Shown piece by piece: positions 37,914 to 45,146 of a DNA stretch of 46,909 bases (its first letter is position 1; the number at the start of each line of letters is the position of its first letter). The notes beneath the pieces are model-generated. The model was not told the DNA's origin and did not search any database. It worked only from the letters and a program-made list of their open reading frames with translations. The stretch spans positions 19,038 to 65,946 of IMG/VR virus record IMGVR_UViG_3300030104_006454. The stretch is one strand, 5' to 3'. The DNA comes from a virus. A program made the position numbers and the translations under genes.

Positions 37914-38169
37914 CATCAATTAATACCACATCGCCTGAGCGAATAACGTGGTATAATGTTTCTTTGTACTGAACTCCGTGTCCAGCATGTTTATCATAAT
38001 AAACAACATCTTTGTCGCTTATTCCTTCTACAAGGTTACCAGTTGATATTACGTTAGCCTTTATATACCTATTGTCCGCATCAACGTCTTCAGTTAATAT
38101 AAGTCCACCAACTTTCTTTGGCCCTTGTTTTATTTTTTGTACTATTATATAATTATTGACTGCTTGCAT
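37909..38169 (-). CDS. groES: GroES co-chaperonin
   Basis: 86 residues, somewhat shorter than the host protein (about 95) but complete. It has the opening strand NNYIIVQKIK, a mobile loop with the hydrophobic GroEL-binding tripeptide (KKVGGLILTED, residues 18-28), and the closing strands LYHVIRSGDVVLI. The start lies inside the end of groEL (17-base overlap), so the two are translated together. It caps the GroEL ring. Order is groEL then groES, the reverse of most bacterial operons. Confidence 0.85.
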   Translation of the reverse strand: MQAVNNYIIVQKIKQGPKKVGGLILTEDVDADNRYIKANVISTGNLVEGISDKDVVYYDKHAGHGVQYKETLYHVIRSGDVVLIDA

Positions 38170-39721
38170 CGCCTCTCATGTTTGAAATTATACAATCAGC
38201 GGATATAATAGTAGTTACAACACTTACCGCATTTTTAAGTGCTGACTTAGTAACAAGTACTGGATCTATAATACCGTGTTTAATCATTTCATATGTATTT
38301 CCATTTGTTACATCTATTCCCTTACCGTTTGTAGGTTCTACCGCTTCAATTATACCAGCATTATCTAATATAGTTTGGTAAGGTGCTTTTATAGCATTAA
38401 GTAGTATTTCTTCACCCCATCCATTTGGCTTTATTTCTTGAGCAGCATTTAACAGTGCAATACCACCGCCTGGCACTATGCCTTCTTTTAAAGCAGCTTT
38501 AGTAGCATATATTGCATCTTCAACTCTGTCTTTCTTTTCTTTAAGCTCTACCTTAGACGCTGCACCTACACGCACCATACCTACTTTACCTGACAACATT
38601 GCAAGACGATCTTGTATTTTTTTCTTTAAAAACGGGTTTTTTTCGTTTTTTATAGCTTTTTTAACATTTTCTATGCGTTCTGTAAGATCTTCGCTAATGT
38701 CTATAGTAGTAATTACAGTATTTTTGTCATTTGTAACAGCTTTATCAGCTTTTCCAAGGCAATCAACAGTAATTAAGTCCATATCATCACCTAATTCTTC
38801 ATTTATTACCGTAGCTCCGGTTAAAAATGCTAAATCTTGAACTGTATCTTGCTTAGTTGGGCCAAAACCTGGTAGATCTACAATGTTTACCTTAATATTA
38901 CCCTTAACTTTGTTCATCATAAGGGCTGATTTTAGTTGAGTATCAACATGTGCAACAATAAGTAACTCTTTTTTGTTCTTTATAACATGTTCTAGTATCG
39001 GTTGTATTTTACGTATGTTAGGTATTTCACTACCTACAATCAAAACTAGCGGTTCTTCAAGTACACACTCGTGTTTATCAGTATCTGTAACAAAATGTGG
39101 TGATGTTAAACCACAGTCAAACTGCACACCGTCAACAATATCAACGTAAGTTTCTTCAGTTCCAGAACCTTCCATGAAAACTACACCATCTTTACCTACT
39201 TTATTGTATGCATCAGCAATAATCATGCCTAAAGTTCGATCATTATTGCAGCTTATACTGCTAATGTCCTCAAGCATGCTGCCTTCAACGTCTATAGCTA
39301 TATTTGTAAGGTATGTATTTACTTTTTCAAGTGCTGAGCTTATACCTTGTTTAATAAATCTAGTAGAAAGTTCTGCATACTGCTCTTTTTGTACTTCTTT
39401 TATCAGTGCTTCAGCAAGGACAGTAGCTGTAGTAGTACCGTCACCTGCTTCTTTCACTGTGTTTTTAGCAGCTTCTTTAATAAGTGTAGCGCCGAGGTTT
39501 TCAACCGGGTCATATAAGACTACGGATTCTGCTACCGTTACACCATCTTTTGTTATGACCGGGTTGCCTCTAGCATCTTCGTATATTACACACTTACCAG
39601 ATGCTCCTAGAGTAGACTTCACTGCTTTTGCTAATTTGTCTACACCCGTAATTATTTTACTTTTAGCTTTTTCACCAAAGTTTAGCTCTTTGATAAGTTC
39701 GCTGGGTTGGTTATATTCCAT
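38153..39721 (-). CDS. groEL: GroEL chaperonin
   Basis: 522 residues, near full length. The ATP-binding motifs are intact: TLGASGKCV at 37-45, GDGTTTATVLAE at 93-104, and VEDAIYATKAALKEG followed by GIVPGGGIALL near the C-terminal equatorial domain. The apical-domain middle is more divergent than in bacterial GroEL. The Gly-Gly-Met tail is missing; it ends MRGDASSQ. It folds proteins inside an ATP-driven double ring with GroES. Divergence and tail loss argue it is a long-established phage gene, not a recent host pickup. It lies 26 bases after a conserved small gene. Confidence 0.9.
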   Translation of the reverse strand: MEYNQPSELIKELNFGEKAKSKIITGVDKLAKAVKSTLGASGKCVIYEDARGNPVITKDGVTVAESVVLYDPVENLGATLIKEAAKNTVKEAGDGTTTATVLAEALIKEVQKEQYAELSTRFIKQGISSALEKVNTYLTNIAIDVEGSMLEDISSISCNNDRTLGMIIADAYNKVGKDGVVFMEGSGTEETYVDIVDGVQFDCGLTSPHFVTDTDKHECVLEEPLVLIVGSEIPNIRKIQPILEHVIKNKKELLIVAHVDTQLKSALMMNKVKGNIKVNIVDLPGFGPTKQDTVQDLAFLTGATVINEELGDDMDLITVDCLGKADKAVTNDKNTVITTIDISEDLTERIENVKKAIKNEKNPFLKKKIQDRLAMLSGKVGMVRVGAASKVELKEKKDRVEDAIYATKAALKEGIVPGGGIALLNAAQEIKPNGWGEEILLNAIKAPYQTILDNAGIIEAVEPTNGKGIDVTNGNTYEMIKHGIIDPVLVTKSALKNAVSVVTTIISADCIISNMRGDASSQ

Positions 39722-41775: not shown

Positions 41776-41808
41776 ACAAACTAAATACGACTACATATGG
41801 ATAATATA
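41776..41808 (+). promoter_or_regulatory. Early promoter element, copy 1
   Basis: ACAAACTAAATACGA, 8-base spacer CTACATAT, GGATAATATA. First and fully consensus copy, directed rightwards. It precedes only a 13-codon frame before copy 2, so copies 1 and 2 may act as a tandem promoter for the first early gene. Confidence 0.75.
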
Positions 41809-42194: not shown

Positions 42195-42271
42195 TAATAC
42201 AAAGTCGAGTTAGTTCCACTTGTTCCCTCGTATAATCAAATATGAATGAGTAATGTAGTCATGGTGCCGAG

Positions 42272-42288
42272 GTGGGTTCGATTCCCAC
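42272..42288 (+). other. tRNA T-arm-like stem-loop
   Basis: GTGGG-TTCGATT-CCCAC is a perfect T-stem and consensus T-loop (GGTTCGATTCC) of a tRNA. A further pairing AGTTA (42208-42212) with TAACT (42293-42297) would enclose a 90-base element, but I cannot draw a normal D-arm, anticodon arm or 7-bp acceptor stem. It may be a tRNA remnant, a tRNA-like RNA element, or an attachment-site fragment; no integrase is visible in the window. It lies between two early genes in 115 bases of non-coding sequence. Confidence 0.45.
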
Positions 42289-42309
42289 GCTATAACTAAA
42301 ATAATTAAT

Positions 42310-42501
42310 ATGAATAAAGTAAAACAACATATAAATAACGCAAAGCGTTTTAGACAAGAAAACTATAAACCACTAATTGAGTACATCAATTGGAGTGAAA
42401 TCACTAAAGATTATAACTTAAAAACAGGCGATTTAAACTACACTGATTACAACAAATTAGAATTAATATTAGATAATTTTGTTAAAAGTAATACAAAATA
42501 A
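42310..42501 (+). CDS. Small early protein
   Basis: 63 residues, basic then acidic: KVKQHINNAKRFRQENYKPL, then WSEITKDYNLKTGDLNY and a closing helix LELILDNFVKSN. The WSEI-KDYNL-TGDL pattern is one I have seen in short phage proteins without known function. No promoter element directly before it, so it probably shares the transcript from copies 1/2. Its stop codon lies inside promoter copy 3. Confidence 0.55.
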   Translation: MNKVKQHINNAKRFRQENYKPLIEYINWSEITKDYNLKTGDLNYTDYNKLELILDNFVKSNTK

Positions 42502-43394: not shown

Positions 43395-43970
43395 ATGAAA
43401 GAAAATAATAAATGGAAGTATCAAGGCGATAGCAGGTACGAGAAAATATATGAGAAAATGCAACTACTTGGTATACAAGACGTTACCACAGATAGGCAAC
43501 ACAAGAATGGTACAATAGTTTGGCGATTACCAATCAAAAATAATTGGCCAAGACAAAACGCTAGTTTCATTGAAGTAGCTAGTATGAAAACAGGTTATGT
43601 ACGTAATCAGAATAGTGGTTATAGTAACTATCAACTCAATAAAAGATGTGAAAACGAGCCGGAGTATTTTAAACTACCTAATGGTGATTATAGAAAATTT
43701 ACAACTCGTGGTTGTGTACTAATACCAATAGAAATTGATAGATTAGAGTATTTAATAAAGTATTGTGTTAAAAACTATTACATTAAAAATGCTAATCAAG
43801 TGCCAAATGGCGAGTTCTATCCAAAGTGGATGTATGATAATGCTAAAGAAAATGCAGACTTTCATGAGAAAAGATCTGATGAGTACATGAATAAGTTTGC
43901 TAATGTAGCACCTGATGGTACAAAAGAAGTAACATTAATAATAGATGGCCATAAATATAAAGTAATATGA
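43395..43970 (+). CDS. Early protein of unknown function
   Basis: 191 residues, the largest early gene apart from the ligase. Starts with Lys/Trp/Tyr-rich residues (NKWKYQGDSRYEKIYEKMQ), then TTDRQHKNGTIVWRLPIKNN; a middle with CVLIPIEIDRLEYLIKY; the C-terminus ends KEVTLIIDGHKYKVI. No catalytic motif was recognised. Stop overlaps the next ATG by ATGA. Confidence 0.5.
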   Translation: MKENNKWKYQGDSRYEKIYEKMQLLGIQDVTTDRQHKNGTIVWRLPIKNNWPRQNASFIEVASMKTGYVRNQNSGYSNYQLNKRCENEPEYFKLPNGDYRKFTTRGCVLIPIEIDRLEYLIKYCVKNYYIKNANQVPNGEFYPKWMYDNAKENADFHEKRSDEYMNKFANVAPDGTKEVTLIIDGHKYKVI

Positions 43971-44107
43971 GTAAGAAAAGAAAACTAAACAGCAAGAATC
44001 CAAAGTATATGGACAAAAGCCTAGTAACCGAAAAGAAGGTTATAAGAAAAGAATTAATTAATAATGTAAAAGGCGTTAAAATAAACGCAGTATGGTATGA
44101 AAAATAA
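43967..44107 (+). CDS. Small basic early protein (46 residues)
   Basis: 46 residues, start overlapping the previous stop by 4 bases. Very basic (SKKRKLNSKNPKYMDKSLV, then EKKVIRKELINN) with no hydrophobic core, suggesting nucleic-acid or ribosome contact. Not recognised. Coupled position supports it being real. Confidence 0.5.
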   Translation: MSKKRKLNSKNPKYMDKSLVTEKKVIRKELINNVKGVKINAVWYEK

Positions 44108-44303
44108 TAGACTAAAAACAATGAACTGTATAACAGTGTTAGATTTTGAAGTGGGAAAAGTGTTTCAATACAATATAGGTAAAGATCACTTATGCTGGAA
44201 CCCTGAATATGAGAGATGTGAGCAATTCTTAACAGGTGAAGGACACAATTTAAGTAACATAAACTGGATGGTACATAGTAATGAGGAAATAATTACAAAT
44301 TAA
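44097..44303 (+). CDS. Conserved small phage protein (LDFEVGKVFQY type)
   Basis: 68 residues from the ATG at 44097, or 60 from the ATG at 44121 (MNCITVLDFE), which avoids the 11-base overlap and fits the homologues I remember better. The pattern ITVLDFEVGKVFQYN, then CEQFLTGEGHNLSNINWMVH is a recurrent short protein of tailed phages without known function. The stop codon lies in promoter copy 5 (ACA AAT TAA). Confidence 0.6.
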   Translation: MKNNRLKTMNCITVLDFEVGKVFQYNIGKDHLCWNPEYERCEQFLTGEGHNLSNINWMVHSNEEIITN

Positions 44304-44327
44304 ATACGATTGCTATTGGATAATATA
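44295..44327 (+). promoter_or_regulatory. Early promoter element, copy 5
   Basis: ACAAATTAAATACGA, spacer TTGCTATT, GGATAATATA. Carries the stop codon of the preceding gene. Ends 15 bases before the zinc-ribbon gene and would also transcribe the structured RNA candidate downstream. Confidence 0.76.
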
Positions 44328-44342
44328 TACAAATAACGATAT

Positions 44343-44552
44343 ATGATTTGTAAATGTAAAAATATAATACCACCTGGCAGAGTTAAACTTGGCTTTAGTA
44401 CGTGTGTAAACTGTTCAACAGTAGAAGCATATGGTTGCGCACCACTAATAAACCACAAAACCGGCAATTCTATTCAGATAATGTCAAGCAGTGACGCTGC
44501 TCGTATTGCCAAGTTAACTCGACGCAGGGGTTATGGAACAATGTTGGCTTAA
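44343..44552 (+). CDS. Small zinc-ribbon protein
   Basis: 69 residues. Cys3, Cys5, Cys21 and Cys24 (MICKCKNIIPPGRVKLGFST then CVNCSTVE) form a zinc-ribbon or DksA/TraR-zinc-finger-like knuckle pair; Cys32 is near. The C-terminal part, HKTGNSIQIMSSSDAARIAK and RRRGYGT, is a pattern I recall from marine phage proteins. DksA-like fingers contact RNA polymerase, so a transcription-modulating role is possible but unproven. It is the only protein gene in the promoter copy 5 unit, followed by the RNA candidate. Confidence 0.6.
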   Translation: MICKCKNIIPPGRVKLGFSTCVNCSTVEAYGCAPLINHKTGNSIQIMSSSDAARIAKLTRRRGYGTMLA

Positions 44553-44818
44553 CTTTGTTTTCAAAACGTGTGGAAGAACAAAGATCAGGTTAATTCTTGA
44601 GCCACACGGACATGTAGAGGCTTGGGTGGTTGCGCGTAAGGCGAGTAGAGACAGTATCTAAGAACAGTTACAGCTTGAAATAATAGTGTACGACTGAGAC
44701 GACAGTATCTCATCTTACTTACATGGCAGAACGGCAGGATAAAGCAAAATGTTCGTAAGTCTGTAAGTTCTTTATGAGTACGCAGAACAAGAACCACGCC
44801 TGCCCTCCCTCTTCATGT
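44553..44818 (+). ncRNA. Candidate undescribed structured RNA
   Basis: 266 bases without a convincing gene, about 44 percent GC against roughly one third around it. Helices found by eye, all Watson-Crick: (a) CGTGTGGAAGAA (44567-44578) with TTCTT-GAG-CCACACG (44594-44608), 12 bp with a 3-base bulge; (b) a closing helix ACATG/AGAGG/GGG/TGGTT (44610-44631) with AACCA/CCC/CCTCT/CATGT (44792-44818), 18 bp in four segments; (c) GCGTA (44634-44638) with TACGC (44779-44783); (d) AAGAAC-AG-TTACAG (44660-44673) with CTGTAAGTTCTT (44761-44772), 12 bp; (e) TGAGA/TCTCA (44695-44699, 44708-44712); (f) ACTTAC/GAAC (44717-44732) with GTTC/GTAAGT (44751-44760). They nest into one multibranched fold filling the space exactly between the zinc-ribbon stop and promoter copy 6. 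The strand is taken from the direction of copy 5. It does not match tRNA, tmRNA or RNase P as I know them. Confidence 0.6.
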
Positions 44819-44819
44819 T

Positions 44820-44852
44820 ACAAACTAAATACGATAATAGAAGGATAATATA
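44820..44852 (+). promoter_or_regulatory. Early promoter element, copy 6
   Basis: ACAAACTAAATACGA, spacer TAATAGAA, GGATAATATA, fully consensus. Begins 2 bases after the last helix of the RNA candidate and ends 15 bases before the 92-residue gene. Confidence 0.78.
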
Positions 44853-44867
44853 ATAAAATTAAATCAA

Positions 44868-45146
44868 ATGAAATTAACAAGTAAAAAAGTAAAACAATAT
44901 ATGGCGTGGAGAACTGATGAAGAGCTCACGCATTGCCCTAATGCTATTGCTGCGGCTTGCAATGATATGTACGAAGAGTACAGGCATAATGAGTTTCTTA
45001 AAATAACAGCAAAAGATTTTATGAAGCTATTATTCTTTAACGACCCAATAGTCGGTATGAATACACATAGCTATGGCTTTCACACAGCACAGGGTAGGCA
45101 CATTATTAACACTTTACAAAATAAATATTATGAGTACAAAAACTAA
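44868..45146 (+). CDS. Small early protein
   Basis: 92 residues, mostly helical: KKVKQYMAWRTDEELTHCP, AIAAACNDMYEEYRHNEFLK, ITAKDFMKLLFF, ending with GRHIINTLQNKYYEYKN. Not recognised. First gene behind promoter copy 6; overlaps the next gene by 17 bases. Confidence 0.5.
   Translation: MKLTSKKVKQYMAWRTDEELTHCPNAIAAACNDMYEEYRHNEFLKITAKDFMKLLFFNDPIVGMNTHSYGFHTAQGRHIINTLQNKYYEYKN

Follow-up and report, generated by a model that had tools for sequence, protein, structure and literature searches.

On the evidence of sequence comparison, a block of 266 bases in an uncultured phage encodes a noncoding structured RNA on the + strand, which belongs to an undescribed family of marine, Flavobacteria-type phages. 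As read from the aligned homologues, the core of this RNA is an H-type pseudoknot, in which helix S1 (GTGGTT/AACCAC) crosses helix S2 (GGCAGG/CCTGCC). The core is open to inserts at two positions, and more than 12 recognisable modules are grafted at these core positions, inside one another, beside the core, or stand alone. The element is rated as new, since no family described in Rfam 15 or in open-access papers has this core or swaps modules from one attachment point to another. The block was analysed within a window of 46,909 nucleotides (the whole stretch of viral DNA studied, to which all coordinates refer unless another locus is named), where the following features were located.

44295..44334, + strand: early promoter copy before the zinc-ribbon gene, ACAAATTAAATACGA-N-GGATAATATA, an exact copy of a repeated motif
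44343..44552, + strand: zinc-ribbon-like gene of 69 aa, next to the block on its 5' side
44553-44818, + strand: noncoding RNA block, 266 bases, from the zinc-ribbon stop to the next early promoter
44567..44608, + strand: module A, helix CGTGTGG/CCACACG, asymmetric internal loop AAGAACAA/GAG and inner stem
44610..44620, + strand: 5' strand of the outer helix P0, ACATG-T-AGAGG, with covariation in 18 distinct homologues
44625..44631, + strand: core strand GGTGGTT, of which 44626-44631 is the 5' strand of S1; GGTGGT is invariant in 18 aligned cores
44632..44732, + strand: insert 1, module D holding module Z
44648..44712, + strand: module Z inside D, with the direct repeat GACAGTATCT at 44650 and 44701
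44733..44745, + strand: 5' strand of S2, GGCAGG (44733-44738), and conserved loop ATAAAGC (44739-44745)
44746..44791, + strand: insert 2, module B, TGTTC (44750-44754)-GTA ... TAC-GCA-GAACA (44785-44789)
44792..44797, + strand: 3' strand of S1, AACCAC; ACCAC is invariant in 18 aligned cores
44799..44804, + strand: 3' strand of S2, CCTGCC, which completes the pseudoknot; pairing and covariation in 18 homologues
44808..44818, + strand: 3' strand of P0, CCTCT-T-CATGT, with covariation
44820..44859, + strand: next early promoter, immediately 3' of the block, exact motif

The block fills the whole gap between the zinc-ribbon stop codon (44552) and the promoter ACAAACTAAATACGA at 44820, as an earlier note on this DNA had stated. 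No further promoter copy was found between the promoter at 44295 and the block, and transcription of the block therefore probably starts at that promoter. The repeated early promoter, ACAAAYTAAATACGA followed by GGATAATAT, occurs in the window at 41776, 41903, 42493, 42890, 44295, 44820 and 45928, and at 1802 in G000. In relatives, a noncoding block often follows the zinc-ribbon gene and stops at the next early promoter; an early promoter lies 8-16 nt beyond the 3' strand of S2 in 18 of 36 cores. IMG/VR viral contigs encode 73 relatives of the zinc-ribbon protein, with 63-100% identity. A small basic protein, MSKKRKLNSKNPKYMDKS, is encoded at 43967-44107, and its relatives are the gene directly upstream of the core in 17 of the 43 members. 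The window differs from these, as its core has shifted to a place behind the zinc-ribbon gene. A GroEL-like chaperonin gene (PHROG 5725) is located at 38153-39718 on the - strand.

The composition of the block differs from that of its surroundings, with a G+C content of 0.435-0.445 against about 0.30, which confirms the reported rise. The block was also said to hold no gene, and only chance open reading frames of 42 aa (+) and 70 aa (-) were found. Open reading frames of at least 50 aa overlap only 6 of 43 homologous blocks, and a coding-conservation check among these blocks detected none, which favours a structured RNA. Two of the proposed helices were recovered. The 12-bp hairpin with a 3-base bulge corresponds to 44567-44608 (7 bp and 5 bp, GAG bulge), the only part of the block that is stable alone (z -3.0). 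The closing helix from 44610 to 44818 pairs ACATG-T-AGAGG with CCTCT-T-CATGT and is extended by GTGGTT/AACCAC. The earlier note thus stands for the G+C content, the lack of a gene, the hairpin, the closing helix and the placement, but not for the stability of the fold or its full nesting. The 12-bp helix with a 2-base bulge was not identified in the block, and the nested six-helix fold gains no stability over shuffled sequence, an outcome that the earlier note had named as a refutation: on the + strand z was -0.14, with 85 of 200 shuffles equal or better, and on the - strand z was -1.05. The helices do not nest consistently either, as GTGGTT/AACCAC crosses GGCAGG/CCTGCC and forms a pseudoknot in the most conserved part. 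The nested folding energy is no better than that of shuffles because this conserved part is a pseudoknot, which such programs cannot draw.

The core was exposed by following two letter strings of the window block that recur in other blocks. Its layout is GGTGGT, insert 1, AACGGCAGGATAAAGC, insert 2 and GAACCAC-R-CCTGCC, the whole enclosed by P0. Covariation across the homologues, which had been proposed as a check, is strong and supports a structured RNA. In 18 distinct sequences, 96.9% of the cells of the pseudoknot and P0 are paired and 7 pairs are changed on both sides; the sequences are related, and the inserts were cut out by rule. None of 500 shuffles reached this covariation, and pairing fell to 37-56% when the partners were slid against each other, a control that retains the relatedness of the sequences. 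The bulk of the variation is found in P0, where 5 of 7 pairs show changes on both sides. S2 is 100% paired, with both-side changes at two pairs, and takes the forms GGCAGG/CCTGCC, AGTAGG/CCTACT and TGTAGG/CCTACA or G, the last in L012, L044, L047, L055 and L064. All five pairs of S1 are invariant with no compensatory change, so S1 is deduced from geometry and invariance. In the region of the S2 5' strand and loop, AGGATAAAGC is likewise invariant in the 18 aligned cores. Within the fixed helices, 10 G-T cells stand against 2 A-C cells, which favours an RNA of the + strand.

The modules vary in their position. The two ends of insert 2 pair in a helix that almost every member spells with other letters; its mean length among 32 distinct inserts is 5.8 bp. 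When the 3' ends of the inserts were swapped among members, the real pairing was never equalled, whether for the 32 insert-2 or the 14 insert-1 sequences (0 of 2000 each). In the window, module A stands before P0. Among 8 distinct relatives of this module, the helix is 91.7% paired, its covariation was matched by 0 of 500 shuffles, and the unpaired letters are nearly invariant. Module D has a conserved strand ATCTTA and a helix of GTAAG (44636-44640) with CTTAC (44718-44722), for which four compensated forms are known: GTGAG/CTCAC, GTAAG/CTTAC (the window form), GCGAG/CTCGC and GTGGG/CCCAC. Module Z is common to the window, L003, L008 and L118. Its helix CAGTT/GACTG (44665-44669/44692-44696), enclosed by the direct repeat, is 100% paired in all 4 known sequences; covariation is weak, and four sequences are too few for a claim. 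Module B also occurs in L003.

The same module can have several parents. Module A is found alone (window), in a tRNA-like element (L003, L045), inside D (L042, L050) and as insert 2 (L014). Module E occurs in insert 1 (L010, L023), D (L042), insert 2 (L066) and a tRNA-like element (L003), and modules F, G, H, K, L and Z are likewise distributed over different parents. At the other extreme are minimal cores, which carry either no module at all (L080, L097) or just a short hairpin (L074, L099). Module E (GAGGTTTGGGATAGACGTTTTACGAAATCTCCAATAGAATAAAAC; at 5260 in L010, and in L023, L042, L066 and L003) is nearly invariant at every insertion site and resembles a second H-type pseudoknot, with GAGGTTT/AAATCTC and GTTTTA/TAAAAC.

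A scan of viral contigs raised the count of distinct cores to 43, every one in viral contigs. A covariance model (R1), built from eleven other members with the window left out, recovered 44723-44805 as its sole match in the window, at E 5e-6. Over 89 IMG/VR records, a sample with a bias to carriers, since the core itself had been used to fetch some of the loci, R1 matched 45, one of them doubtful (L016, E 0.005). The core is present once in 44 of these 45 records and twice in L134. No bacterial genome matched the strict core pattern. A looser pattern gave 20 bacterial matches, which by eye did not contain the rest of the core, mostly resembled coding sequence and were rejected as chance. The core is also absent from six related phages of the annotated collection, which were picked because their terminases are similar (MW202828, two Elemovirus, two Cellulophaga phages and one Tenacibaculum phage). 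The terminase of the window phage is placed near Elemovirus, Pachyviridae and Pervagoviridae phages of Flavobacteriia, so its host probably belongs to the Flavobacteria. The genes beside the cores fall into 13 unrelated upstream and 9 downstream clusters, and this variety argues against a cis element specific to one gene. In distant phages, the minimal core stands alone, directly after a Bacteroidetes-type promoter in L077 and L080/L097.

Searches for known families support the reading as a structured RNA of no known class, alongside the covariation and the absence of coding conservation. At the gathering cut-off, Rfam 15 gave no match in the window, and in 18 related loci none except one ordinary tRNA in L041. 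Permissive Rfam scans of the window block, L003, L080 and L099 returned sub-threshold matches only. Blastn searches of phage records with the block and with core sequences gave nothing real, and no description of the element was found in the literature searched (open-access PMC papers). The nearest known kind is that of the ornate phage RNAs GOLLD and ROOL, structured RNAs of phages and prophages that have pseudoknots and a function still unknown, reach hundreds of nucleotides and form cages (PMC12286853). Like them, the element is a phage-encoded structured RNA with a pseudoknot, and it shares with GOLLD the division into one conserved and one variable part (PMC12286853). In contrast, its core, known here from sequence, can be as small as about 60 nt, and its modules are exchanged between attachment points. 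The GOLLD and ROOL covariance models had no match in the window, the related loci or the permissive scans. The H-type pseudoknot riboswitches SAM-II and preQ1 are similar in their compactness and strongly conserved loop letters, but the element has neither an Rfam match nor a constant downstream gene, and it tolerates large structured inserts at two points. The likeness to tmRNA (RF00023) concerns blocks neighbouring the core in related phages, which hold elements with an acceptor stem and T-arm and without an anticodon arm. The window block itself has no T-arm: neither ARAGORN nor the Rfam tRNA and tmRNA models found an acceptor stem with T-arm in it. L003 shows no more than a 17-nt piece of T-arm with a match to tmRNA, which scores far under the gathering cut-off. 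As a kind, structured RNAs of phages with unknown function are already known. What is added is a new RNA fold family, seen to date in uncultured phages alone, and a mode of evolution that swaps folded RNA parts among attachment points and preserves the core with hardly a letter changed.

As for its role, we tentatively prefer, with somewhat less than even confidence, an undescribed structured RNA that is made early, acts in trans and offers a pseudoknot scaffold for exchangeable modules. Early transcription, trans action and the presentation of motifs are what we infer here. The RNA would be produced early from the promoter at 44295, where it probably forms the 3' part of the transcript that includes the zinc-ribbon gene. 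The pseudoknot may serve as a scaffold or binding site that stays constant, whereas the modules grafted onto it would present differing conserved loops to proteins or RNAs of the host or the phage. In the likeliest use, RNA-binding, decay or defence factors of the host would be occupied or diverted at an early stage of infection, and the exchange of modules between phages might reflect differing targets. Trans action is favoured because the element is present in a single copy and its neighbouring genes change. If these RNAs do act in trans, they would serve the phage as a tool at the start of infection, and every module could be used directly as a probe to find its partner in Flavobacteria. 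A wider reading, doubtful but possible, is a combinatorial RNA-gene system, in which early noncoding RNAs would be assembled from a shared set of more than 12 structured motifs on the pseudoknot core and on tRNA-like elements without an anticodon arm, the motifs being exchanged to match the host factors that are bound or neutralised. Nothing points to a ribozyme or packaging role.

Several findings count against trans action. In 26 of 43 members, the 9 nt that follow P0 contain at least five T, and a promoter directly follows half of the cores, both of which fit a cis-acting 3' end. The main rival is indeed a transcript-end element, a possible reading of lower probability: an early unit would have the block as its 3' UTR, P0 with a U-rich tail would terminate or slow transcription, and the pseudoknot with its modules would shield the mRNA end from 3' exonucleases. 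In the window, as in many relatives, the block lies after a stop codon and ahead of the next early promoter, which agrees with this, and the many unrelated upstream genes would suit a general 3' end device. Many members also resemble intrinsic terminators in ending with a stem and a T-rich stretch before the next promoter, but differ from them in having a conserved pseudoknot and modules as the loop. Moreover, no T-run follows the window copy, and no terminator-like site (stem and U-tract) was detected in 44200-45000. The element occurs once per genome although early units are many, and in distant phages the core stands 5' of a gene. Finally, a terminator or stabiliser needs neither an invariant pseudoknot core nor swapped modules with invariant loops.

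The trans-acting reading also has to be weighed against a 5' leader element, which would fit the cores located 21-42 nt before an open reading frame (L077, L080, L099, L118). A riboswitch-like leader, in which the pseudoknot would bind a metabolite or ion and control the following gene by sensing or attenuation, is nevertheless unlikely. The compact H-type pseudoknot and the near-invariant core would suit it, as would the core between a promoter and a peptidase-like open reading frame in L077/L080 and the T-run after P0, 21 nt before an open reading frame, in L099. In the main lineage, however, the block ends before a fresh promoter and so lies outside the leader of the next gene. The downstream genes belong to 9 unrelated clusters, and no Rfam riboswitch was matched.

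A self-cleaving ribozyme or RNA-processing site is quite improbable. Its conserved, pseudoknotted core and its size are ribozyme-like, and the tRNA-like elements among the neighbours are possible processing sites, but no Rfam ribozyme family was matched. The order of the core helices presumably differs from the HDV, twister, pistol and hammerhead layouts, and these readings were dropped together with group I. A DNA-level element, i.e., a hairpin for replication, packaging or recombination, is highly improbable: the blocks change position and have modules in common, as recombination sites might, but the pairing is strand-specific in its G-T and A-C cells, a pseudoknot with invariant unpaired loops is typical of folded RNA, and the cores were scored beside genes of the same strand. 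Chance structure in an ordinary intergenic gap, to which only the shuffle-like nested folding energy would lend itself, is refuted by the covarying core conserved in 43 distinct homologues and its recovery by an independent model at E 5e-6.

Other structured elements were observed in the same early regions. The tRNA-like elements consist of an acceptor stem and T-arm with no anticodon arm, and some are only about 46 nt long. They are located at 42195-42312 in the window, at 4216-4494 in L003, and in L006, L007, L011, L032, L045, L068-L071 and others, and are reported neither by ARAGORN nor by the Rfam tRNA and tmRNA models at the gathering score. A matching acceptor strand is present within 100 nt of 55 of 94 distinct T-arms, against 19.5 with swapped acceptors. 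A separate element of about 50 nt, TATAAGTACACTAGTAAG...CGAACGGTACTTATA, directly follows the zinc-ribbon gene in L006, L007, L011, L029, L042 and L066, and its closing helix is changed on both sides (GTAC/GTAC, GTG/CAC, GAGTG/CACTC).
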